The notes beneath the pieces are model-generated. The model was not told the origin of the DNA. It saw nothing but the letters and a program-made list of their open reading frames with translations, and did not search any database. 61,319 nt of DNA from Sciscionella marina DSM 45152 (GTDB lineage Bacteria; Actinomycetota; Actinomycetes; Mycobacteriales; Pseudonocardiaceae), in the NCBI RefSeq assembly GCF_000379465.1, contig NZ_KB905405.1, positions 1 to 61,319 on the forward strand, in the 5' to 3' direction. The translations under genes and the position numbers were made by a program. Positions 40,713 through 55,125 of this stretch are shown here, in pieces. Positions within the stretch are counted from its first letter, which is position 1; each line of letters starts with the position of its first letter.

Positions 40713-42238
40713 GTGTGACCGGCCAGGAACCGTTCGCCGCCGAGGTGGTCCTCGGCGATCCGAAGGCCGAGATCAGCCCGCTTATCTACGGCCAGTATCT
40801 GGAACATCTCGAGGACTGTATCTACCCGGCGATCTGGGACGAGCAGTCACCGCAGGCCGACGAGCACGGGTTGCGGCGGGATGTGATTGCGGCGGCGGTA
40901 GAACTCGGCGTGCCGGTGGTGCGTTGGCCCGGCGGGTGTTTCGCGGATGTCTATCACTGGCAGGACGGAATCGGTGCGCGAGCCGAACGGCCGGTGCGGC
41001 GGAACTGGCACTGGGGTGGGCTCGAACCGAACCAGTTCGGCACCGACGAGTTCCTGACCTGGTGCGAGGAGATCGGCGCCTCGTCCTACCTCAACGTGAA
41101 TCTCGGTACCGGCACCCTGGACGAGGCGTTGCGCTGGATGGACTACTGTACCGGGACCGAGGACACCGCGGATGTCTTGAGACGCAAGGCGAACGGGCGT
41201 TTCGCGCCGTACCGAACCGGATTGTGGGGGATCGGCAACGAGACCTGGGGTGCCTGGGAAGCCGGCACCATGGGGGCCCAGGCGTACGGGCTGAAGCTGG
41301 CCAACTGGTCGGACTTCGCGCTCCGTCACCACCCCTCGGTCGAGCTGCTCGGTATCGGTTCCTCGGAGGGCGGGGAACCGGGATGGGACCGGACGGTGCT
41401 CGATGCGGCGGGCGCCAAGCTCTGTTACCTGACCAACCATGTCTACGGCTATTCGACCGATCGGGTCAGTGGTGCGGAGTACCTCAACGTCGCGTTCACC
41501 CCAGTGTATTTCGAAGCAAGGCTCCGCGCGATGGCTGCGGTGCTGGACGACTTTCATCGGACCAGCGGTGCCGAACCAGTGCGGATCGCTGTGGACGAAT
41601 GGAACATCCGGCATTTCGAGACGGACGGGGCGGGCGGTTATCGGCTCAACCGGGCGAGCCCACGCAACGTACAGGACGCGGTGTTCGTCGCCGGGGCGCT
41701 AAACTCCATGATCCGGCTCTCCCCGGTGGTTGGCATGGCGAACTACGTGTTCTTGGTCAACGGCAACGGTGTGCTCAATGTGCGCGGTAGCGAGCTGGTG
41801 CGAACCACGCTCTACCACGTTTTCCGGCAGTACCGCTCGTGGCTGCGAGGGCGCGTGATCGAGCTGGACGTCCGCTCGCCGAGTACCGAGCTGCCCGAGC
41901 CACGGCCGGGTGAACCGGGACATGTCCCGGTTTCGGCCGGCTTGCCCGCACGGGCCTCGTACCTGGACGCGGTCGCCGCCGTCGACGAGGGGCGGTGCGC
42001 CGTGTCACTGGTGAACCGACATCGATACACGCCGATCAGGGTGCGGCTCCACGGCGCCGTGCGCTGGCGGGAAAGCTGGACATTGACCGATGACGACCTG
42101 TACGCCGTCAACGATTTCGACCATCCGGAGCGGGTACTGCCAAACCGCGAGCCGATCGATCCCGCGACGACCGAATGGGTCTGCCCGCCGCATTCGGTCA
42201 CTTTGCTCAGGGGTGAGATATCAAGAGGTGCGGCATGA
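40709..42238 (+). CDS. GH51 alpha-L-arabinofuranosidase
   Basis: 509 residues from GTG 40709. Acid/base Glu178 in [13 protein letters not shown] and nucleophile Glu297 in [13 protein letters not shown] stand at the ends of TIM-barrel strands 4 and 7; [20 protein letters not shown] is the other GH51 hallmark. C-terminal beta-sandwich from about residue 400. No signal peptide, so it cleaves imported arabinofuranosides inside the cell and releases L-arabinose. It gives the best clue to the operon substrate. Confidence 0.92.
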
Positions 42239-43093
42239 GGATCACCGGACTGCGGACCTATCTGGTGCCCCCGCGGTGGCTGTTCCTGCGGATCGACACC
42301 GACGACGGCGTGACCGGCTGGGGTGAGCCTGTAGTGGAAGGCCGGGCGGAGACGGTGGCGGCCGCCGTCGCTGAGCTGGCCGATTACCTCGCCGGGACCG
42401 AGCCACTGCGGATCGAGGATCACTGGCAGGTGCTGACCAAGGGCGGTTTCTATGGTGGCGGCCCGGTGCTGTCCTCGACCGTCGCCGGCATCGACCAGAT
42501 GCTGTGGGATATCGCGGGCAAGGTCCGCGGTGCCGGGGTGCACGAGCTGCTTGGCGGTCCGGTACGTGAGCGGGTACGGTCTATTCCTGGATCGGTGGCG
42601 ATAAACCCGATTCGGTGCATGAAGCGGCGGCCGCACAAGTGGTGGCCGGTTTCACCGCAGTGAAGATGAACGCCTCATCCGACCTCGAACACATCGACAC
42701 GGTGTCCGCGGTCACCGCTGTGGTGGGTCGGGTGGCCGCCGTACGGGATACACTCGGCCCCGGATCGGGACGTGGCGATCGATTTCCACGGCCGGGTCTC
42801 GCTGGCGATGGCACGCAGGTTGTTGCCCCGGCTCGAGACGTTCAACCCGCTCTTCGTCGAGGAACCGGTGGTTCCTGAGCTCGGAGCCCGCCTGCCGGAA
42901 CTCGTGCGATGCTCACCGGTACCGATCGCCACCGGTGAGCGGTTGTACTCGCGTTGAGATTTCCGGCACGCGCTCGAAGCCGGTGTCGCCGTGGTACAGC
43001 AGGATGTGTCGCATGCCGACGGGATCTCCGCGACTCGCCGGATCGCGGCGATGGCAGACACCTACGGTACCGCGTTGGCACCGCACTGCCCGC
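42235..43093 (+). pseudogene. Galactonate-dehydratase-like enolase-superfamily gene, frameshifted and cut by IS630
   Basis: ATG 42235 overlaps the GH51 stop (ATGA). [20 protein letters not shown] and [19 protein letters not shown] start an MR/MLE protein; a shift near 42578 leads to [19 protein letters not shown], another near 42752 to DVAIDFHGRVSLAMA (metal Asp), FVEEPVVPE (Glu) and IATGERLYSR (Glu), then TGA at 42955-42957 where RWDF is normal, then HALEAGVAVVQQDVSHADGI and APHCPL. The IS630 follows. DFHGR and YSWIGGD resemble D-galactonate dehydratase (DgoD). Beyond the IS the rest of the gene is not present. Confidence 0.8.
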
Positions 43094-44240
43094 TAGTGGT
43101 CTGTCTGGGTTTTGATTTGGTGGAGGGTCGTGCGACCGCGTTGGGTCTTGGTGATGATCTCTTCGGCGGGTGTTTTCCAGACGAAGGGTTTCGGGGAGGT
43201 GTTCCAGTGCTCGGCCCAGACGGTGATGGCCTGCTTGAGGTCGGAGACGCTGGTGAACACGCCCCGGCGCAGGCGCTTGTCGGTGAGTTCTTTGAACCAG
43301 CGCTCGATGAGGTTCAGCCACGAACTCGATGTGGGGGTGAAGTGCAGGTGCCAGCGGCGACGGTCCTTGTGTGCCAACCATTTCTGGATCTCCGGCGTGG
43401 AGTGCGCGGAGAGGTTGTCGAGTGCCACATGTACCCCGAGTCCGCGCGGAACGCTGCGGTCGATCCGTTTGAAGAACCGCAACACGTCCGCGCCGGTGTG
43501 CCCCCTGACGCAGGTCGGTGAGCACCTCGCCGGTGCCAATGTTCATCGCGGCGAACAGATCGATCGTGCCGTGGCGCTTGTAGTCATGCGTCATCGTCGT
43601 CGCCCGGCCGGGCTTGAGCGGCAACGACGGCTGGGTCCGATCCAGGGCTTGACATTGCGTCTTCTCATCGAAGCTAAACACCACCGCCCGGGCTGGCGGG
43701 TTCAGATACACCCCAACCACGTCGACCAGCTTGTCCTCGAACTGCGGATCATTGCTGATCTTGAAGGTATCCACCTTCCAGGGCTTCAGCCCGTGATCGG
43801 CCCAGATACGAGCCACCGAGTCCTTCCCGATACCAACCCAGGCCGCCATCGAGCGGGTGGTCCAGTGCGTCGCCCCGCCAGGGGGAGTTTCGTGCGCTGT
43901 GGTGTGCAAGACGCGCTCGACCGTGCGCTCCGGCAGACTGGGCTTACGTCCTCGCCCCTTAGCGACACGCCCGACGCCCGCGACACCGGACTCGGCGAAC
44001 CGGTAACGCCAGCGCCGCACCGTATCCGAGTCCACACCCGACCGTCGCGCGATCACCTCGTTGGCTACGCCGTCGCCCGCCCACAGCAGCGCCCGCGCCC
44101 CCACCACCTGCCGATGCGGCAACCTCGACGACCCCGCCATCCGCCCCAACGCCACACGCTGCTCGTCCGCCATCGACAACGCCGCAGCGACCATACCGAC
44201 ATCCTACAAACCACCAAGCCAAATCACAGACGCACCACTA
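43094..44240 (-). mobile_element. IS630-family element with TA target duplication
   Basis: The element occupies 43096-44238. Its ends are inverted repeats: GTGGTCTGTCTG on the left and GTGGTGCGTCTG (read inward) on the right, with further matches inside. Both are flanked by TA (43094-43095 and 44239-44240), the IS630/Tc1 target duplication. Length 1,143 bp. Inserted in the DgoD-like pseudogene. Confidence 0.85.
43096..44194 (-). pseudogene. IS630 transposase, one frameshift
   Basis: From ATG 44194: helix-turn-helix region (VANEVIARRSGVDSDTVRRW, SMAAWVGIGKDSVARIWADH), then DDE domain with VVFSFDEKTQCQALDR (Asp) and, after a shift at a run of five G near 43505, HVALDNLSAHSTPEI (Asp) and SSWLNLIERWFKEL (Glu). 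One extra G separates the frames (DLRQGAHRR versus RGHTGADVLRFF). All catalytic residues survive, so this may be a sequencing error, a programmed shift or a recent inactivation. Confidence 0.8.
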
Positions 44241-45632: not shown

Positions 45633-46628
45633 TCACCTCGCGGTGAGTTGGGCCGCCTCAAGCCGGTGGTAGATGGCGTGCTCGCGGTACATCAGGTCCA
45701 GCAATCGTTGCAGGCGCCGCGGCTGCAACGTGGTGGGGTAGTTCGGCAACGTGATCAGTGACGCGATCGAGCGTGGGATTTTGACGTAGTTGGTGAGCGT
45801 ATCGACCACGAGTTCGCGGCTCGAGGCGAGTCCGGCGGCTTGCTGGATGGCGCGGCGGAACGCGGCGACGGTGTGTGGGTTGTGTTTGGTGTAGCTGGCT
45901 GTGGCGTAGTAGCCGTCCAGTGGGAAGTTCGCGGTCGGGCCGCTGCACGGGCTCAGCACGGTGCGTGCGCCTTGTTGTTCGGCGAGGGTGACGAACGGTT
46001 CGGGGAACCAGGCGGCGTCGATCTGGTGGTTGTGCAGTTTTGTCAGCGCGTCTTCGAACGGCATGCCGATGTATCGGGTCCCGGACGGGTCGATGTTCAT
46101 GCTGCGCAGGACGCGGTCAAGGGTGACGCTTTGGATGTTGGGGGCGGGGTTGTTGATGGCGACGGTCGCGTTGGCGAGTTTGGCGGGCGTGTCGATGGGT
46201 GAGTCTGGCGGTACGACCACGCCGGTTTGATTGGTCGCGGCGAGCCCGGCTTCGGCCACGACCCGCAGGTCGATCTGGCCGCGGTCGGCGGCCTGGAAGT
46301 AGGTGCCGAGATTCCCGCCCGCCTGGATATCGGCCTTGCCCTGGTTGAGTTCGGGGATGGCGAGGTTGGACTGTGACACCGTGTCGATGGTGACGTGCAA
46401 GCCCTGGGCGGTGAACAGGCCGCGTTGCTGCGCGATGTAGAGCGGCGCATCGTCGGCGGTAGACAAAGCAGACACGTGCACGTCGGTGTCCTCGCCGCTG
46501 GGTATCACCGCGCGGTGACTGTGGCTGCCGCAAGCGACGGTCGCGCCGGCAAGCAGTAGGCAGGCCAGCAGCGCCAGGGTGGGTTTGGCGGCGCGTGAGC
46601 GGTAGTGGGGCCGGGAGGTGCTGCTCAT
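45633..46628 (-). CDS. NMT1/SsuA-type substrate-binding lipoprotein, orphan
   Basis: 331 residues from ATG 46628, which overlaps the stop of the 63-residue gene (ATGA). N-terminal KPTLALLACLLLAGATVAC is a lipoprotein signal with the lipobox Cys, then VSALSTADDAPLYIAQQRGL, FTAQGLHVTIDTVSQSNLAI and NQGKADIQAGGNLGTYFQ as in the nitrate/sulfonate/thiamine-precursor (NrtA, SsuA, ThiY, RibY) family. No permease or ATPase gene is adjacent. As the last gene of a coupled signalling operon it may present an extracellular ligand to the kinase rather than to a transporter; that role is inferred. Confidence 0.88.
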   Translation of the reverse strand: MSSTSRPHYRSRAAKPTLALLACLLLAGATVACGSHSHRAVIPSGEDTDVHVSALSTADDAPLYIAQQRGLFTAQGLHVTIDTVSQSNLAIPELNQGKADIQAGGNLGTYFQAADRGQIDLRVVAEAGLAATNQTGVVVPPDSPIDTPAKLANATVAINNPAPNIQSVTLDRVLRSMNIDPSGTRYIGMPFEDALTKLHNHQIDAAWFPEPFVTLAEQQGARTVLSPCSGPTANFPLDGYYATASYTKHNPHTVAAFRRAIQQAAGLASSRELVVDTLTNYVKIPRSIASLITLPNYPTTLQPRRLQRLLDLMYREHAIYHRLEAAQLTAR

Positions 46629-46816
46629 TCGGTTCCTTGCTGAAAGTAGTGCGCGGGCGGGGTGAACCACCAGCCTGGGGGCGCCGGGTCGTTGTCCAGC
46701 CCGCTGATGCGGGCATTGAGCGCCTGGATCAGTAGCAGGATCGTGTCCCGGTGTTCGGCACCCGCGTCGGGTTGTTCGCCTTGCGCGACGGCGTCGTGTC
46801 GGTGCATGGGGATCAT
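46625..46816 (-). CDS. 63-residue protein of the conservon-like operon, unknown
   Basis: ATG 46816 overlaps the GTPase stop (ATGA) and its own stop overlaps the lipoprotein start (ATGA), so its place in the operon is fixed by coupling on both sides. Residues TILLLIQALNARISGLDND suggest one amphipathic helix, followed by PAPPGWWFTPPAHYFQQ, rich in Pro and aromatic residues. No signal peptide or known motif. Candidate small adaptor between the GTPase and the lipoprotein gene products; function unknown. Confidence 0.7.
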   Translation of the reverse strand: MIPMHRHDAVAQGEQPDAGAEHRDTILLLIQALNARISGLDNDPAPPGWWFTPPAHYFQQGTE

Positions 46817-47445
46817 CCGTTCCTACCGGGTGCCGGGACCGGGGCCGCGGTGTGCCGGTTGGCCAGCGCATGTTCGACCACGGCGATCAGCGTCCGTGTG
46901 GCCGAGGTGGTGTCTCGCGCGTCGCAGTCCACCATCGGGCGGCGCGCGTCGAGCGCGAGCGCTTCGCGCAGATGTTCGTGCGCGTAAGGGAAATCGCCGT
47001 CGAAACCGTTGACGGCGATGACGAACGGGATATTGGTGCGTTCGAAGTAGTCGATCACCGGGAACGAGTCGATCAGGCGCCTGGTGTCCACGAGAATGAC
47101 CGCGCCGATCGCGCCGCGCACCAGGTCGTCCCACATGAACCAGAATCGTTGCTGTCCGGGTGTGCCGAACAGGTACAGGACCAGTTGCTCGCGCAGCGAG
47201 ATCCGGCCGAAATCCATCGCGACGGTCGTGGTGGCCTTGTCGACGGTGCCGGATAGGTCATCGACACCGACGCTGCGGTCGGTGAGCACTTCCTCGGTGC
47301 GCACCGGCGCGATCTCGGACGCAGCGCCCACGAACGTCGTCTTACCGACACCGAACCCGCCGGAGACCACGATCTTGACCGGTGTCGGCTCACCGTCATC
47401 GTGCGGTCGCCCGCGCATCGGCTCAAACTCGCTTGCGGAGTTCAT
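46813..47445 (-). CDS. Conservon GTP/ATP-binding protein (MglA-like small GTPase)
   Basis: 210 residues from ATG 47445, preceded by GGGAGAGG; ATG 47418 is an alternative 4 nt after the DUF742 stop. P-loop VVSGGFGVGKTTFVGA, switch region TEEVLTDRSVGVDD, G3 YLFGTPGQQRFWFMWDDL, and VIAVNGFDG in the place of NKxD. It is the fourth subunit of Streptomyces Cvn-type operons, thought to be a membrane-peripheral G-protein switch with the histidine kinase, Roadblock and DUF742 partners. Confidence 0.92.
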   Translation of the reverse strand: MNSASEFEPMRGRPHDDGEPTPVKIVVSGGFGVGKTTFVGAASEIAPVRTEEVLTDRSVGVDDLSGTVDKATTTVAMDFGRISLREQLVLYLFGTPGQQRFWFMWDDLVRGAIGAVILVDTRRLIDSFPVIDYFERTNIPFVIAVNGFDGDFPYAHEHLREALALDARRPMVDCDARDTTSATRTLIAVVEHALANRHTAAPVPAPGRNG

Positions 47446-49159
47446 CGAGCACCTCTCCCAACAGCTGCGTGTCTGCGGCTCGTTCGGGGTCGAACCGGTA
47501 TGTGTTGACCATTCCCGCTTCGACGAGGTCGGCGAGCAGTACGCGCACCACGCCAAGCGGCAGCCCGAGGCTGGCGGCGAGTTCGGCCACCGAGGTCGCC
47601 TCCTGACATCGGCGCAGTAGCTCGGCGGCTTCGGGAGACACCTGGCGGGGCGGCGCGATCAGCGGGTAGCCGAAGCGGAACATGTTGTCCGGGTCCCAGG
47701 CTTGTTTGATGCCGATCAGCCGATGGTGAGTGTCGGCATCCCACGCTCGCGCCACGTCAGCGGGGGCGTTGGCCGAACCGAGGAAGTTCACCGGTACCCC
47801 ACCGGCGGCCCACGGTGCGATGGCCTCGAGCAAGCGTGTGCTGCCGCTGACGCTGCTACCGGCGTCGATCGGGGCGCTGACCACATAGACGGAGTAAGCG
47901 GCGTCACGATGCCCGACGCTGCCGATATCCGACCCGTAGCGGTGGAACGCGCCACCGAGTTGACGTAGTTCGACGAACAACACCGGTTTTGCGCTCGTAT
48001 TCATGGTCGTCAGCAGCGCAGAGACCGTATCGTCGGTCAGCTCAGTCAAAACTCCGCCGCGCTTGTCGGCGGCGATCGGCGTCGTCGGGTCCTCGTGGAC
48101 CTCGGCGATCGAGGTGAACGGTCGCTGGGCCACGGTGTCGAGCAGTGGGGTCGCCACCGAACGCATCGGTGTCAGCAGTGCGGATCCTTGTTCGACCGTG
48201 CCGATGTGTGCGATGCGCAGATGCACGAGCGGACACGCGGCCGAGGCGCCAGGCAGTTGCAAACCGGCCGTACTGCCCAGCAACGCGATCGAGGTGGTCA
48301 TGGTCGCCGGCAGAAGCGGTGCCCAGCGAACGTAGCTGCGCAGCACCGCTTCGGCGTCCTTGCCGTCGTAGTACAACCCGCCACCGTAGAGTTCGGGTTC
48401 GTCGACCAGCCCGAACTCCATCGCGGTGACCACGCCGAAGTTGCCTTTCCCACCGCGCATCGCCCAGAACAGATCCGGCTCGTGGTCACCGTCGACGAGC
48501 CGCCGGTAGCCGTCGGCCGTGACCACCTCGATCTTGCGCACGTAGTCGGCGCTGAACCCGTAGGTACGCCCGAGGGGGCTGAGCCCGCCGCCGAGCGTGT
48601 AGCCGATCACGCCGACACTCGGCGCCGAACCGCAGACCGGTGCCAGCCGGTACGGTGCCGCCTCGTCGATAACATCCCGCCAGATGACACCCGCTGCCAC
48701 CTTGACGCTGCGTTGCCGCCGGTCGATCTCCAACCGGCGCATCCGACGGGTGCTGATCAGCAACGCGCCATCGGTATTGCTCAGGTTGCCGTGCCCGGTG
48801 GACTGGACCGCGACCGGAAGGCCGTGTTCCGCGGCGAACTCGACCGCCGAACGCACATCGTCGCTCGTGCGCGCCCCGACCACAGCCAGTGGCCGGTGTG
48901 CCGGTGCGCCGAACGAGCCCGCTTGCTCGACCGCGAAGCCCTCGTCACCTGGCTCGAAGACCGGCCCGCTGATGCCTTCACGCAAGGCGGACAAGGCTGC
49001 CGCAGACGGCGCCGAAAACGAGGCGGCCGGACTGCGTCCGGTGGCGCGCACGAGCGTCTCCGGTGGCATGACGACCTCATCGGCGGTGCGACCGCCGGTG
49101 AGCACGTAGGGCCGCACCAGCGGGCTGGCCCGGTTCGATGACGGCTCACCTGGTGTCAT
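47423..49159 (-). CDS. DUF742 protein with an FAD-linked oxidase domain inserted inside
   Basis: 578 residues from ATG 49159, overlapping the Roadblock stop by one base. Residues 1-40 (SPLVRPYVLTGGRT, MPPETLVRATG) are the first half of DUF742; residues about 485-578 (VSPEAAELLRRCQEATSVAE, LAASLGLPLGVVRVLLADLV, then EVLDELRKRV) are its second, winged-helix half. Between them sits a whole PCMH/BBE-type FAD oxidase: RPLAVVGARTSDDVRSAVEF, VAVQSTGHGNLSNTDGALLI, SVGVIGYTLGGGLSPLGR, WAMRGGKGNFGVVTAMEFG, and a C-terminal BBE-like end IGIKQAWDPDNMFRFGY. A normal conservon DUF742 protein has about 120 residues. GHG may bear the flavin-linking His. The fusion suggests redox input to the signalling complex. 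Confidence 0.9.
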   Translation of the reverse strand: MTPGEPSSNRASPLVRPYVLTGGRTADEVVMPPETLVRATGRSPAASFSAPSAAALSALREGISGPVFEPGDEGFAVEQAGSFGAPAHRPLAVVGARTSDDVRSAVEFAAEHGLPVAVQSTGHGNLSNTDGALLISTRRMRRLEIDRRQRSVKVAAGVIWRDVIDEAAPYRLAPVCGSAPSVGVIGYTLGGGLSPLGRTYGFSADYVRKIEVVTADGYRRLVDGDHEPDLFWAMRGGKGNFGVVTAMEFGLVDEPELYGGGLYYDGKDAEAVLRSYVRWAPLLPATMTTSIALLGSTAGLQLPGASAACPLVHLRIAHIGTVEQGSALLTPMRSVATPLLDTVAQRPFTSIAEVHEDPTTPIAADKRGGVLTELTDDTVSALLTTMNTSAKPVLFVELRQLGGAFHRYGSDIGSVGHRDAAYSVYVVSAPIDAGSSVSGSTRLLEAIAPWAAGGVPVNFLGSANAPADVARAWDADTHHRLIGIKQAWDPDNMFRFGYPLIAPPRQVSPEAAELLRRCQEATSVAELAASLGLPLGVVRVLLADLVEAGMVNTYRFDPERAADTQLLGEVLDELRKRV

Positions 49160-49572
49160 CACGTGTCGGGCAGCTCGGCACGATGGGACGGGTTCACCGC
49201 CCGACCGACGCGTTCGACCAGTACTGCCATCTCGTAGGAGACCAGCCCGAGGTCGCACGATGGGGCGGCCAGCACAGCCAACGACGACCCATCCCCGACG
49301 GCCATGAGCAACAGCGTGCCGCGGCGCATTTCGACCACCGTCTGAGTCACCCCGTCCCCGTCGAACACCTGCGACGCGCCCGCGGTGAGGCTGGCCAGGC
49401 CCGAAGCGATGGCCGCGAGCTGGTCGGCCCGGTCACCGGGCACCTCCACCGAGACCGCGACCGGTAACCCGTCCGAGGAGACCACCACGGCGTGCGCGAC
49501 GCCCGGGACCCGCTCGACGAAGTCGGTGACCAGCCAGTTCAAGTCCGCAGGCGCGGTTCTAGCTTCCTGCAC
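49159..49572 (-). CDS. Roadblock/LC7 domain protein of the conservon
   Basis: 137 residues from GTG 49572 with AGGAG 7 nt upstream; an in-frame TTG at 49614 gives a poorer N-terminus. [59 protein letters not shown] and [20 protein letters not shown] form the Roadblock fold of GTPase-activating or scaffold subunits (MglB-like). Lies 57 nt behind the histidine kinase. Confidence 0.92.
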
Positions 49573-49629
49573 AGGGTTCTCCTCTCCACACCGGCACGTT
49601 GCCGAACCGGACAACTCGCTCCTGGTCGC

Positions 49630-52419
49630 TCAACTACTCCCCGTTTCCTCATCACGCCGCAAACCCGGCGGCGTGGTTGGCGCAGCCGCCGCCCGATAGC
49701 CGCGCCGCGAGCCGGATTGCAACGCCGCGAAACGCTCCCGCAACGCCTCCGGACTTTGTTCCCAGCTCGGTCGGTCTTGCGCCCGCGGTCGCGCGCGCTC
49801 GTTCAGGGCCACGTGATCGGATCCCGCCGATCCGGGAATGTAGTTGGCGCCCGGATCACGGCGCGGCAGCCCCATCGAAGTCCGTCCTGCCGCGCTCGGA
49901 TGATTCATGGGAGCGCCCATTACCGGTAACGGCCGCGACACCGGCTGCGCCGACCCGGCGCGGTGTGCTTCCGCGTGTCCACGGCGCGCGCCAGCCTGGT
50001 AGGCAGCGAACCGGTTTCGCAACGCGTCCGGGCCCTGCTCCCAAGACTCGCGCTGCTCGTGTCGAGACGTCGGTTCCCCGTGGCCGGCCTGCCCTGGTCG
50101 GCTTACCTGCTCGGATGATGGTCCGACCATCGAGCCGGGCACGTAGTTGCTGCCCGGCTCGCGGCGCGGTAACCCCATCGAGGTTCGCCCCCTCGAGGTC
50201 GGTGCCCGCCATGCGTGCTGCGACGCGCTGGCGCGCGGTCCTGCCTCGCCGCTGGCGCTGCTGGGATGATCGATCGCAGGCAATGGCTCGTCACCGAACC
50301 AGCTGCCCGCGGCCGCGCCGGTTGCCGACATCGCCTGCACCCAGCGCTGGCCCGGCCACCCGGGGGCCGGTTGCCCGGGCCAAGCCTGCGATGGTGGTTC
50401 CGTGAGCGGCACCGGTTGCCGCGAGGTGACCAGCGTGGCAGGCAGTATGGCCAGCGCTATCAGCCCGCGCTGCTGGCCAGGCACCAACCGCACGTCGACG
50501 CCGTGCTTGTGCGCCAATCGCCCCACCACGAACAGCCCCATGTGCCGCGAGACGCCGGGCTGGATGACCGGTGGGTCCACCAGATCCGCGTTGCGCTGCG
50601 CCCGCTCATCCTCAGCGATGCCGATGCCGTAGTCGAGGATTTCCACCGCGACACCGCCCTGCGCATCCGCCGGGTATGCGCGGACCTGCACCGGTTGGTC
50701 CGGTGGGGAAAAAGTCGTCGCATTATCCAGTAACTCGGCAAGCAAATGCACCACATCGGTCACCGCCGACTCGCTGATCAACACGTCCGGCAGCCCGGGC
50801 TCGACCTCGACTCGTTCGTAGCGCTCGACTTCGGAGGCGGCCGCACGCACCACATCCAGTAACGGCATCGCCTCGGTGAACCGCCGGCTCGGTTCCTCGC
50901 CGCCGAGCACGAGCAGGTTCTCGCCGTTACGCCGCATCCGGGTAGCCAAGTGATCGAGCCGGAACAGACTCCGCAACCGGTTCGCGTCCTGCTCCTGCTT
51001 CTCGAGACCATCGATCACCTCGAGTTGGCGCTCCACCAGGGTCTGGCTGCGCCGCGAAAGGCTGACGAACAACGCGTTGATCTGGTTGCGCAGCTGCGCC
51101 TGTTCACCCGCGAGCCTCGCCGCGACCCGATGCACCTCGTCGAAGGCACGTGCCACCTGGCCCACCTCATCGACCGAGTCGACCTCGATCGGTGCCACAT
51201 GCTCGGCCACATCACCGGGCTGGTCCGAATACAGGCGGGCCACCAACGCGGGCAGCCGCTGGTCGGCGACCGCCATGGCACCGCCTCGCAGGCTCCGCAA
51301 CGGTCGAACCAGCGACCGTGCCACCATGATCGTCGCGAACAGCACGACCAACAACACCGCCAACGCGACCACCCCGGCGATGATCGCGTTGCGCACAGCG
51401 GTCCCGGCGAGCTCCGCCGCCCGATCGCTGACCGACCCGATCAAGCCCCGCTCCACCACACGGACCTTGTCAAGTGTGCCGGACACCGCGCCCGCCCACG
51501 TTTGCGCAGCGTTGCCCGGCGCACCGGCGATCCACCGGCCATCAGAGCTGGTGACCTGATTGAGCATCGCCTGTGTCTCGTCGATATCCTGCCCGGTCAC
51601 GACGTAGGCGTACCGCTGCTGCTCTGCCCCGGTCGCAGCGACCTGGAACTGCTGGTAAGCGCTTTGCTGCGCCGAAACGGCCGCGTTCAACTCGGCCAGC
51701 CCGCCGAGCTCGAACCCTTTCGCGCGCAACGCCGAGCCCACCAGGCTGCGTTGGATCCCCACCTGCAGCTTCAGCCTGGAAATATCCCCGAGTGCCCGCA
51801 CCGAGGACAACAATCCCGGATCGGCGGTCTCCGCGGCGATCTCGTCATCCACCGCCAGCAAATCGGCGATGATGTCGGTGTATTTCTGAATCACCACATT
51901 GACTGGCAGTCGACTTTGCTCCACAGTGCTGCGCAAACTGGGTAACTCACCGATGCGAAACGCCGCCGTGCCTGCCCGCGCCCGCACCGGCGCCGGGTAG
52001 CGCCCACCCACCCCGAGGTCAGCACGACGCAGCTCGCCGGTCAACGCATCGTCCACACCCCGATACGCCGACCGCAGTGCCCCCTTCCCGTTCGCCGGTC
52101 GACCGGTCGCCGCGAAGGCAGCGGCAGCAGTCTGTTCGGCCTCGAGTTGCGCCGCGGCAGCGGTCAGTGAGCCGCCAAGGCGAGCCAGCGCCTCGGTATG
52201 CCGATCGCCGAGCGCGTTGCCAACCGCACCGACGACCCCGAACACACCAAAACCCAGAGCCACCAAGGTGGGCACCAGGATCAGCGCAACCAGCCGCCGA
52301 CGAACCGGCCAGTCCCGTAACCGCCGCCAACCACCCTGTGCACCACCGACACCCCTGCCCCCGTCGGTGAGCACAGTTTGCCCAGTGCTCTTGCCCCTTG
52401 CCGCGCCGCGGTCAGCCAA
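49630..52419 (-). CDS. Conservon sensor histidine kinase with nitrate/nitrite-sensing-type domain and C-terminal tandem repeat
   Basis: Up to 929 residues (TTG 52419; an internal GTG at 52374 is possible). Two membrane helices: LVALILVPTLVALGFGVFG (about 43-62) and IIAGVVALAVLLVVLFATIM (about 345-364). The extracellular part between them is the helical NIT-type nitrate/nitrite sensor. HAMP follows, then phospho-acceptor His in LFRLDHLATRMRRNGENLLV, N box LAELLDNATTFSPP, G1 ILDYGIGI and G2 SRHMGLFVVGRLAHKHG. The C-terminal 270 residues are Pro/Gly-rich and hold two copies of a module (742-815, 843-908) starting RTSMGLPRR and ending in W-E-Q-x-P-x-A-L-R-x-R-F-A-A. First gene of the operon. Confidence 0.9.
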   Translation of the reverse strand: MADRGAARGKSTGQTVLTDGGRGVGGAQGGWRRLRDWPVRRRLVALILVPTLVALGFGVFGVVGAVGNALGDRHTEALARLGGSLTAAAAQLEAEQTAAAAFAATGRPANGKGALRSAYRGVDDALTGELRRADLGVGGRYPAPVRARAGTAAFRIGELPSLRSTVEQSRLPVNVVIQKYTDIIADLLAVDDEIAAETADPGLLSSVRALGDISRLKLQVGIQRSLVGSALRAKGFELGGLAELNAAVSAQQSAYQQFQVAATGAEQQRYAYVVTGQDIDETQAMLNQVTSSDGRWIAGAPGNAAQTWAGAVSGTLDKVRVVERGLIGSVSDRAAELAGTAVRNAIIAGVVALAVLLVVLFATIMVARSLVRPLRSLRGGAMAVADQRLPALVARLYSDQPGDVAEHVAPIEVDSVDEVGQVARAFDEVHRVAARLAGEQAQLRNQINALFVSLSRRSQTLVERQLEVIDGLEKQEQDANRLRSLFRLDHLATRMRRNGENLLVLGGEEPSRRFTEAMPLLDVVRAAASEVERYERVEVEPGLPDVLISESAVTDVVHLLAELLDNATTFSPPDQPVQVRAYPADAQGGVAVEILDYGIGIAEDERAQRNADLVDPPVIQPGVSRHMGLFVVGRLAHKHGVDVRLVPGQQRGLIALAILPATLVTSRQPVPLTEPPSQAWPGQPAPGWPGQRWVQAMSATGAAAGSWFGDEPLPAIDHPSSASGEAGPRASASQHAWRAPTSRGRTSMGLPRREPGSNYVPGSMVGPSSEQVSRPGQAGHGEPTSRHEQRESWEQGPDALRNRFAAYQAGARRGHAEAHRAGSAQPVSRPLPVMGAPMNHPSAAGRTSMGLPRRDPGANYIPGSAGSDHVALNERARPRAQDRPSWEQSPEALRERFAALQSGSRRGYRAAAAPTTPPGLRRDEETGSS

Positions 52420-53019: not shown

Positions 53020-55125
53020 TCAGGATTCCTGGTGCGGGACATCCACCGAGCCTTTTGGAGTGTTGTTTGTGCGGTGCAGCCTGTGTTGCAGGATTATGTC
53101 GAGTTGATTCGTGTCGTTGGCACGAACGGCCAGCGATCTTCTCACCGGCGGATACCCTGAGGCGATCAAGGTGTAGTTCCCCTCGTCGACTTCGGGAAAG
53201 TGGTATGCGCCGCTGTCATTGCTGATGACACTGTTGTGGATATTGCCTGTGTCATCGACCAAAGTCACCAGCGCCTCGGCGACCGGGGCTGCATCGGTGG
53301 CGCGGCGGACGAAGCCCGTGACCGAGGTGCGGACCTGCAGGGGTATATCGACCGTGACAGTACCTGCCTCGGGCACCGTCACGGTCTGTACGGCTGGTGG
53401 TTTGTCGACAGGGGCTGCGGTGACGATGTAATCACCGCCGAGCACGCCTTGAAAATGATAACGGCCGTCTCGATCGGTTCGGTCGGTATCGGTGACCATT
53501 CCCTGCGTGTCCACCAAGGTGACGGTCACGGAGTCCCATTTCTTGCCTGCAGCGACGACAGTTCCCTGCAGCACACTTGCACCGTCGAGTTCGAGTTCGA
53601 GCGCGACGGGTTCGCCTCGCAACTGGACGGCTTTCGCTTCGGGACGCATGCCGTGTGCGTACGCGATGAGTACGAAGGATCCGTCCGGGGCACCTACGAG
53701 GGCGTAACGGCCGTCCGAACCGGATACACCGAGCGCGTGCTGTCGACCATCGTGGTTGATCAGCGTAAGGGTAGCCCCGGTCAACGGTGTGAGTCGGGCA
53801 TCGCGCACATGGCCGTAGACGACGTTGCCTTCCGATGGCGACCGTGCTTCTCCCGCCCCGTAGACCCCCTGGGGCGCCACTCCCGGGCTGTGGGGTTCTT
53901 CGGGTTCACTTTGTTTCTCGTATCCGGCGGAATTGATCAGCCGGTGAGCGGTCGCGAGTACGACTGCCCCGAGTAGTACCGCGCCGGCTCCGATACCGAA
54001 GGGAAGATGGTCGCCGTAGGCTGCTGCCAGTATTCCGGCTACCCAGGGGGCCAAACCACCACCAAGAAAGCGCACGAAACTGTAGGCCGCGGAGGCGGTT
54101 GGCCGAGCGACGGGCGATACGCTCATGACGGTCGCGGTGACCAAAGTGTTGTTCATACCGATAAACGCGCCACTGATGACTACACAGACGATCACCACGA
54201 GCGGGCGCTCGACCCAGATGGCGATCGCGGCGACGTCGATCGCCATCAGCACCAAAGTCAAGTACAACGACCGCGCCGTACCGATCGCACGTTCGGCCCG
54301 CGGTGCGACGAATACCGCGAAGATCGCCACCAGTAGGCCCCAGCCGAAGAAGACGAAACCCAGCTGGTGCACACCGATGTGCATCGGGTACGGCGCATAC
54401 CCCAGGATGGTGAAGAATCCCCAGTTGTACAGCAGCGCCGTCAAGGAAACGGTTAACAGACCACGGTGGCGTAACGCCTTGACCGGTGCGGACAGAGGTG
54501 TCCGTTGCGCTGGTCTCGGCGTTGGCGACAGCAAGGTGACGACCATGATCAGGGCGATCGCCATCAACACCGCCACACCGAAGAATGGCCCACGCCAGCT
54601 GACCCCACCGAGCAAACCGCCGACCAGGGGGCCGAGCGCGATGCCGAAGCCGAGTGCGGCCTCGTAAAGCATGATCGCGCCTTCGAACCCGCCGCTGGCC
54701 GCGCCCACGATGACCGCCAGCGAGGTCGCGATGAACAGGGCATTGCCCAGTCCCCAGCCAGCGCGGAAGCCGATGATGCCGTCAACACCGCTCGACAACC
54801 CGGCCAGCGCTGCGAACACCACAATGATGATCAGCCCGGTGACCAGGGTTTTCTTCGCGCCAATTCGACTCGAAACCCAACCAGTGACCAGCATCGCTAC
54901 CGAGGTCACCAACAGGTAACTGGTGAACAGCAACGAGACCTGAGATGGTGAGGCATGCAACTGGGATGCCATCGTCGGCAGGATCGGGTCGACCAGCCCG
55001 ATCCCCATGAACGAAACGACACAAGCAAATGCGACCGCCCACACCGACCGTGGCTGCCGCAAGAAGCTGGGCCTTCGTCCAGTCGTCTGTTCCGTTGCAT
55101 TCGTCTCGACCGTCCGGCTGGTCAT
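53020..55125 (-). CDS. MFS transporter fused to three carboxypeptidase-regulatory-like (beta-sandwich) repeats
   Basis: 701 residues. Residues 25-405 are a 12-helix drug:H+ antiporter-type MFS (FMGIGLVDPILPTMASQLHA; GWVSSRIGAKKTLVTGLII; YEAALGFGIALGPLVGGLLG). After a polar linker three CarboxypepD_reg-type modules follow: NVVYGHVRDARLTPLTGATL with GSDGRYALVGAPDGSFVLI; LQGTVVAAGKKWDSVTVTLV with RDGRYHFQGVLGGDYIVT; VTGFVRRATDAAPVAEALVT with DSGAYHFPEVDEGNYTLI. The start overlaps the MarR stop (ATGA). With 12 helices the C-terminus should be cytoplasmic, odd for such extracellular-type modules. Confidence 0.9.
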   Translation of the reverse strand: MTSRTVETNATEQTTGRRPSFLRQPRSVWAVAFACVVSFMGIGLVDPILPTMASQLHASPSQVSLLFTSYLLVTSVAMLVTGWVSSRIGAKKTLVTGLIIIVVFAALAGLSSGVDGIIGFRAGWGLGNALFIATSLAVIVGAASGGFEGAIMLYEAALGFGIALGPLVGGLLGGVSWRGPFFGVAVLMAIALIMVVTLLSPTPRPAQRTPLSAPVKALRHRGLLTVSLTALLYNWGFFTILGYAPYPMHIGVHQLGFVFFGWGLLVAIFAVFVAPRAERAIGTARSLYLTLVLMAIDVAAIAIWVERPLVVIVCVVISGAFIGMNNTLVTATVMSVSPVARPTASAAYSFVRFLGGGLAPWVAGILAAAYGDHLPFGIGAGAVLLGAVVLATAHRLINSAGYEKQSEPEEPHSPGVAPQGVYGAGEARSPSEGNVVYGHVRDARLTPLTGATLTLINHDGRQHALGVSGSDGRYALVGAPDGSFVLIAYAHGMRPEAKAVQLRGEPVALELELDGASVLQGTVVAAGKKWDSVTVTLVDTQGMVTDTDRTDRDGRYHFQGVLGGDYIVTAAPVDKPPAVQTVTVPEAGTVTVDIPLQVRTSVTGFVRRATDAAPVAEALVTLVDDTGNIHNSVISNDSGAYHFPEVDEGNYTLIASGYPPVRRSLAVRANDTNQLDIILQHRLHRTNNTPKGSVDVPHQES

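Follow-up and report, generated by a model that had tools for sequence, protein, structure and literature searches.

The window, by which we mean the whole stretch of 61,319 nucleotides from Sciscionella marina DSM 45152 analyzed here, contains a cvnC gene in which an FAD oxidase is nested inside the DUF742 domain (47423..49159, reverse strand). The frame runs from 49159 to 47423 over 578 residues with zero internal stops, and its homologues are found in five other genomes. An earlier note on this DNA had given these coordinates correctly and had described an oxidase inserted between two retained halves of DUF742, which is borne out below by the open frame, the profile matches and the motif spacing. 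The same architecture is present in six genomes (the window genome G000, and G225, G226, G117, G994 and G264) belonging to four genera of one family.

The window locus is a conservon by its operon and domains, with four genes in the canonical order, all on the reverse strand. The cvnA gene (49630..52419) encodes a NIT-HAMP-HATPase sensor kinase-like protein, and the cvnB gene (49159..49614, exact start uncertain) encodes a roadblock/LC7 protein; both were identified with Pfam. The cvnD gene (46813..47445, with a start inferred from the G225 homologue) encodes a Ras-like GTPase, as assigned by Pfam and the GTPase tree. The ATG of cvnC overlaps the stop codon of cvnB upstream (TGATG), and the end of cvnC overlaps the start of cvnD. 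The same operon surrounds the nested cvnC in the five further genomes, which represent three other genera; the order cvnA, cvnB, cvnC, cvnD is kept in G225, G226, G117 and G994, and across the two pieces of G264. Gene order, overlapping genes and domains (NIT-HAMP-HATPase CvnA, roadblock CvnB, DUF742 CvnC and Ras-like CvnD) are shared with known conservons (cvnA-D) such as Cvn8, Cvn9 and Mfp. In contrast, the window CvnC, with its 578 residues and nested oxidase, departs from the small single-DUF742 protein that is the norm in known conservons. The nested systems further differ in the length of the CvnC insert (450–472 residues, derived from the motif spacings given below), in a binding protein gene that follows cvnD and, in two genomes, in a fusion of CvnA with a transporter.

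DUF742 was detected by Pfam in two stretches of the window protein (E 1.2e-26, 93.2 bits in total). The N-terminal part (residues 10–44, VRPYVLTGGRT...ETLV; 49028..49132, reverse strand) matched profile positions 2–52, and the C-terminal part (residues 504–576; 47432..47650, reverse strand), a winged helix with the motif LPLGVVRVL, matched positions 38–113. The N-terminal match is clean in the G264 copy, where it covers positions 3–37 with 26.6 bits, slightly below the cut-off of 27. HMMER found a single DUF742 stretch in the G117 copy; the VRPYxxTGGRT segment is nonetheless present in the alignment. Because the pieces 3–37 and 38–113 are complementary, they represent one DUF742 domain split at its linker. 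Two separate DUF742 copies flanking the oxidase were also considered and were ruled out by this complementarity.

Solo CvnC proteins are composed of a VRPY/ETLV segment, a short linker, a helix and a winged helix with LPLG. A scan of 42 loci gave 21 solo rows with matches to both motif patterns (19 distinct genes, as L182/L214 and L187/L211 are each the same gene). In these rows, VRPY and LPLG are 59–62 residues apart, compared with 518 residues in the window protein and 511–533 across the five unbroken nested proteins. Judged by alignment, the insertion site is the linker that already connects the VRPY/ETLV segment to the winged helix in solo CvnC. A sequence search with one solo CvnC as the query found no solved DUF742 structure. 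In the AlphaFold model of the window protein, the pLDDT values are below 50 at residues 1–45 and 553–578, and 62–79 in the blocks that cover the winged helix.

The nested domain (residues 53–500; 47660..49003, reverse strand) was assigned as an FAD oxidase of the McrA/EncM/BagK type using Pfam, NCBIfam and structure matches. Pfam found FAD_binding_4 at residues 90–217 (E 3.2e-26) and BBE at residues 471–496 (E 1.4e-4, 22.2 bits with the cut-off at 20.6); BBE fell below the cut-off in the G225 copy. The closest NCBIfam model over residues 53–500 was BagK/FevA1, with 424.5 bits, far under its cut-off of 800. Among solved structures, the best relative by sequence was the mitomycin radical oxidase McrA (9r43, E 8.6e-91), and EncM was second. 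The AlphaFold model, based on 29 sequences, has a pLDDT of at least 90 at 300 residues, and McrA (9r43) was also its top PDB match in Foldseek (TM score of 0.93 by target length, 38% identity). Nearly all of McrA is matched by the predicted model; in this respect the oxidase domain is complete, as had been claimed earlier for the FAD_binding_4/BBE-type region between the two halves. It belongs with McrA, EncM and BagK by fold and sequence.

McrA, EncM and BagK/FevA1 are standalone enzymes. The nested domain shares their full-length fold and a flavin-site histidine aligned with His78 of EncM; it is 38% identical to McrA in the structural match, and among the rows compared the nested domains group apart from the standalone enzymes. 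McrA confers self-resistance by reoxidizing mitomycin hydroquinone, according to passages of one report (PMC9570651), and our search of the literature on mitomycin oxidase found no structural paper on McrA. Residues 2–210 and 419–461 of EncM are described as one FAD-binding domain in sections of another report (PMC7662398). Since both ends of an EncM-type enzyme would then lie in one subdomain, a nested insertion appears plausible.

EncM binds its flavin via His78, according to the same sections (PMC7662398). The aligned residue of the window protein is His123 (codon 48791..48793, reverse strand), which is present in 5/5 nested and 77/77 standalone sequences; duplicates and L009, L010, L012 and L032 were left out of these and the following residue counts. 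His123 is therefore the predicted flavin-anchoring histidine for a single covalent FAD attachment. Residue 179, which we take to be the motif position of the second FAD-linking cysteine in berberine bridge enzymes, is Ala in 5/5 nested sequences, and the second, cysteine link to FAD of the bicovalent berberine-bridge enzymes is thus absent. The remaining flavin-site and glycine-rich positions that we checked are retained in the nested sequences. A clade-specific redox cysteine at position 176 was considered and rejected, because Cys occurs there in only four of the five nested sequences (Ser in G994) and also in 17 of the 77 standalone sequences.

The nested domains differ from the standalone enzymes at two other places. 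Standalone McrA-like oxidases share a conserved loop at 297–307 (Pro297 in 76/77, Pro303 in 75/77), which is degenerate in the nested clade; its loss possibly reflects a changed oligomer or substrate-entry surface. Because of this difference, the activity of the nested oxidase may be altered. Lys366 is found in 5/5 nested sequences, compared with Glu or Asp in 56/77 standalone sequences. Both changes favor an explanation in which the flavin domain binds a ligand or reads a redox state without meaningful catalysis and thereby gates CvnC. However, EncM is an active enzyme and likewise has Lys at the position aligned to Lys366, and the retention of the other flavin-site and glycine-rich positions also speaks for a working enzyme. 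We consider such a sensor without turnover quite unlikely.

Genus searches found the nested architecture in one of the two genomes of the window's own genus, in 2 of 18 genomes of g42, in 1 of 19 of g27 and in 2 of 62 of g5. The two positives in g5 are G994, which is complete, and G264, in which two contig ends interrupt the gene. Among 297 genomes drawn from the family, the matches listed included full-length proteins in G000, G225 (61% identity), G226 and G117 (49% each) and a G264 piece at a contig edge; these are at least the matches present, as further contig-edge fragments are possible. Full-length homologues share 47–62% identity with the window protein. Draws from the order (397 genomes) and the class (394 genomes), which overlap each other and leave room for rare cases elsewhere, gave no full architecture at E 1e-120 except the window's own. 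A contig scan with six peptide patterns taken from the window protein, which reaches close relatives only, yielded 62 relatives, none of them matching past residue 523, and no frame with both DUF742 motifs. The nested architecture is rare, with six genomes found. By keyword searches alone for DUF742 or conservon together with FAD, it was found nowhere in print, and the words flavin and FAD (as a whole word) do not occur in PMC13343842.

This rarity and the draft state of the window genome (86 contigs, 3.83% contamination) could indicate a chance fusion, a misassembly or a decaying gene. However, the architecture recurs in six genomes of four genera, G225 carries it in a single-contig genome, and the five unbroken copies have open frames and form one clade. 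Synonymous sites are nearly saturated in all pairs except the closest one, G226/G117, for which dN/dS is 0.29 in the oxidase and 0.30 in the C-terminal half, values that speak against decay; it is 0.67 in the N-terminal part over 37 codons, linker included. Because five other genomes of the family share the architecture, it is not a sequencing artifact and goes well beyond chance. A chance fusion or misassembly was rejected on the basis of these homologues, and this whole group of explanations is extremely improbable. The argument of the earlier note, that an insertion that keeps the operon order is no accident, was thus confirmed in other genomes.

A quick tree built from 93 oxidase rows places the five nested domains together in a clade of their own (SH-aLRT 100). 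The six partner GTPases also group as a single clade (100/98) among 38 CvnD rows, with compatible branching inside it; this tree carries a long-branch warning where the outgroup G020 joins. The nested oxidases and their partner GTPases are each monophyletic; therefore, one old insertion fits best. We did not find the solo CvnC from which the nested form arose: in G020, which branches closest outside the GTPase clade, cvnB and cvnD are not separated by a DUF742 gene. In some conservons, seen at L213:6822-7843 (reverse strand), L246 and L247, cvnB and cvnD leave no room for an intervening DUF742 gene. CvnC is therefore either dispensable in some systems or encoded elsewhere.

An NMT1/SsuA-like binding protein is encoded downstream of cvnD in all six clusters. 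In the window, it comprises 331 residues counted from the Met at 46628 (45633..46628, reverse strand) and has a lipobox-like signal, judged by eye; the binding proteins of the other clusters are 50–78% identical to the G994 copy. Its gene adjoins cvnD in the window, G225 and G264, and a gene for a TPP enzyme lies between the two in G994, G226 and G117. The gene after cvnD thus encodes either a binding protein or a TPP enzyme in the six clusters. No ABC permease was found among the neighboring ORFs scanned, and the binding protein therefore looks like an orphan. For the TPP enzyme, present in three of the six clusters, the best NCBIfam model was benzoylformate decarboxylase, below the cut-off. 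Outside the six clusters, TPP homologues (E 1e-130) were found in 8 further genomes of 249, with 49–54% identity, and in one of the nine loci fetched for them (L220) a protein distantly related to the binding protein is encoded close by.

An MHS-type transporter accompanies CvnA in four of the six clusters, as an adjacent gene in two and as a fusion in two. The transporter gene precedes cvnA in G994 and G264; the best models for the G994 protein, metabolite/H+ symporter and shikimate transporter, were both below the cut-off. In G226 and G117, CvnA is N-terminally fused to an MFS/MHS-type transporter, which constitutes a transporter-sensor fusion within a conservon. The fusion frames, of 1505 and 1366 residues, contain Sugar_tr/MFS, NIT, HAMP and HATPase domains (L116:3928-8442, forward strand, and L117:11349-15446, reverse strand). 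Upstream of cvnA in the window lies a possibly associated gene for an MFS transporter (53020..55125, reverse strand) with three CarboxypepD_reg-type stretches at its C-terminus. In G994 and G264, a protein resembling this repeat part has a gene of its own, which follows that of the binding protein.

The binding protein in six of six clusters, the MHS transporter in four and the TPP enzyme in three point to a particular small molecule rather than a general redox state. The suggestion of the earlier note that the subunit senses or produces a redox signal stays hypothetical. They also resemble a pathway, and the active-site histidine is intact. The nested domain could accordingly be an ordinary catabolic or tailoring oxidase, docked by DUF742 onto the membrane-bound conservon where the substrate enters, without gating the GTPase. 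Separate P450 accessory proteins, known in other conservons from passages of PMC13343842, provide a precedent for this. On the other hand, the insert lies in the middle of DUF742, although a fusion at one end would suffice for tethering. Moreover, the flanks of 138 standalone-oxidase loci (roughly 1.5 or 5 kb, less where a contig ends, with a few genes occurring twice) contain no match to CvnA, CvnB, CvnD or the binding protein, so that the link with a conservon is particular to the nested form. Mere tethering seems rather unlikely.

The explanation that we favor over tethering and over a sensor without turnover, tentatively and at somewhat less than an even chance, is that the nested flavoenzyme gates CvnC by its substrate and so controls the step of CvnC on the GTPase. 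CvnC is probably a helper that switches the small Ras-like G protein. As cited in PMC13343842, MfpD (CvnB) is a GAP and MfpC, a CvnC homologue for which no insert is mentioned where it is cited, is a likely GEF for the GTPase; CvnC8 and CvnD8 act jointly, according to parts of PMC8510531. CvnC would have been rebuilt once, in the ancestor of the operon, by insertion of a complete McrA/EncM-type oxidase into the flexible DUF742 linker. A particular small molecule would enter via the binding lipoprotein, joined by the MHS-type transporter in the four clusters that have it, and the flavoenzyme would bind and oxidize this molecule or its product. Depending on whether the flavin domain is occupied or on its redox state, the two parts of DUF742 may then move against each other, and this shift may alter the action of CvnC on CvnD, either in nucleotide exchange, as with MfpC, or in the CvnC-CvnD complex. 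We infer in this way that the domain contains flavin and turns over, that it senses its substrate and that it is coupled to the GTPase with a definite direction of effect. The fuller version, an oxidase-gated Ras-like switch in which the nucleotide state of CvnD is determined by substrate oxidation or flavin redox state in a domain nested within the exchange subunit, is doubtful.

Substrate gating of CvnC is supported by both DUF742 signatures and the predicted FAD-attachment histidine, which are retained despite only 47–62% identity, by the dN/dS of the oxidase and C-terminal half in G226/G117, by the single clades of nested oxidases and of partner GTPases, by an insert placed in a natural linker, by the recurrent neighborhood, and by the lack of CvnA, CvnB and CvnD matches in the flanks of the standalone loci. 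However, CvnA retains its own NIT sensor, and the published pattern needs no second input. The transporter and TPP genes are missing from some of the six clusters, and the architecture is rare. The changed loop 297–307, the higher dN/dS of the N-terminal part and the low pLDDT at residues 1–45 and 553–578 also count against it.

Close published parallels are CvnE (P450) and CvnF (GAF), which likewise add a module, possibly sensory or redox, to a conservon. These accessory proteins are encoded by separate genes and accompany a CvnA without a sensor domain, as described in portions of PMC13343842. This pattern is absent here: CvnC itself contains the module, and NIT is retained in CvnA. The combination suggests a second input that acts at a later step.

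SsuA/NMT1-like binding proteins also adjoin conservons without a nested oxidase (L230-L245; L246, L247, L248, L250 and L252). A CvnA-like match lies within 1.5 kb of a related binding protein in 9 of 16 other loci (L230-L245), an unselected count; therefore, the link is wider than the nested-oxidase systems. Full layouts of binding protein and conservon were seen at L246-L248, L250 and L252, within wider neighborhoods that were partly picked for coordinates already near a CvnD. Elsewhere in the window, at 42235-44194, a frame that encodes just the N-terminal domain of a mandelate racemase/muconate lactonizing enzyme is followed by one that resembles what we take to be a broken IS630-type transposase. 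The racemase-type gene was probably cut by an insertion element.

If the proposed gating of CvnC is true, the orphan-looking binding lipoprotein and the MHS transporter, which is fused to the kinase-like CvnA in two genomes, would complete a pathway from a metabolite to a G protein. A CvnC with a built-in enzyme provides a concrete handle on the input of conservons and on the role of their DUF742 subunit. The transporter-CvnA fusions and the recurrent neighborhood of binding protein and conservon hint at the input side of such systems.
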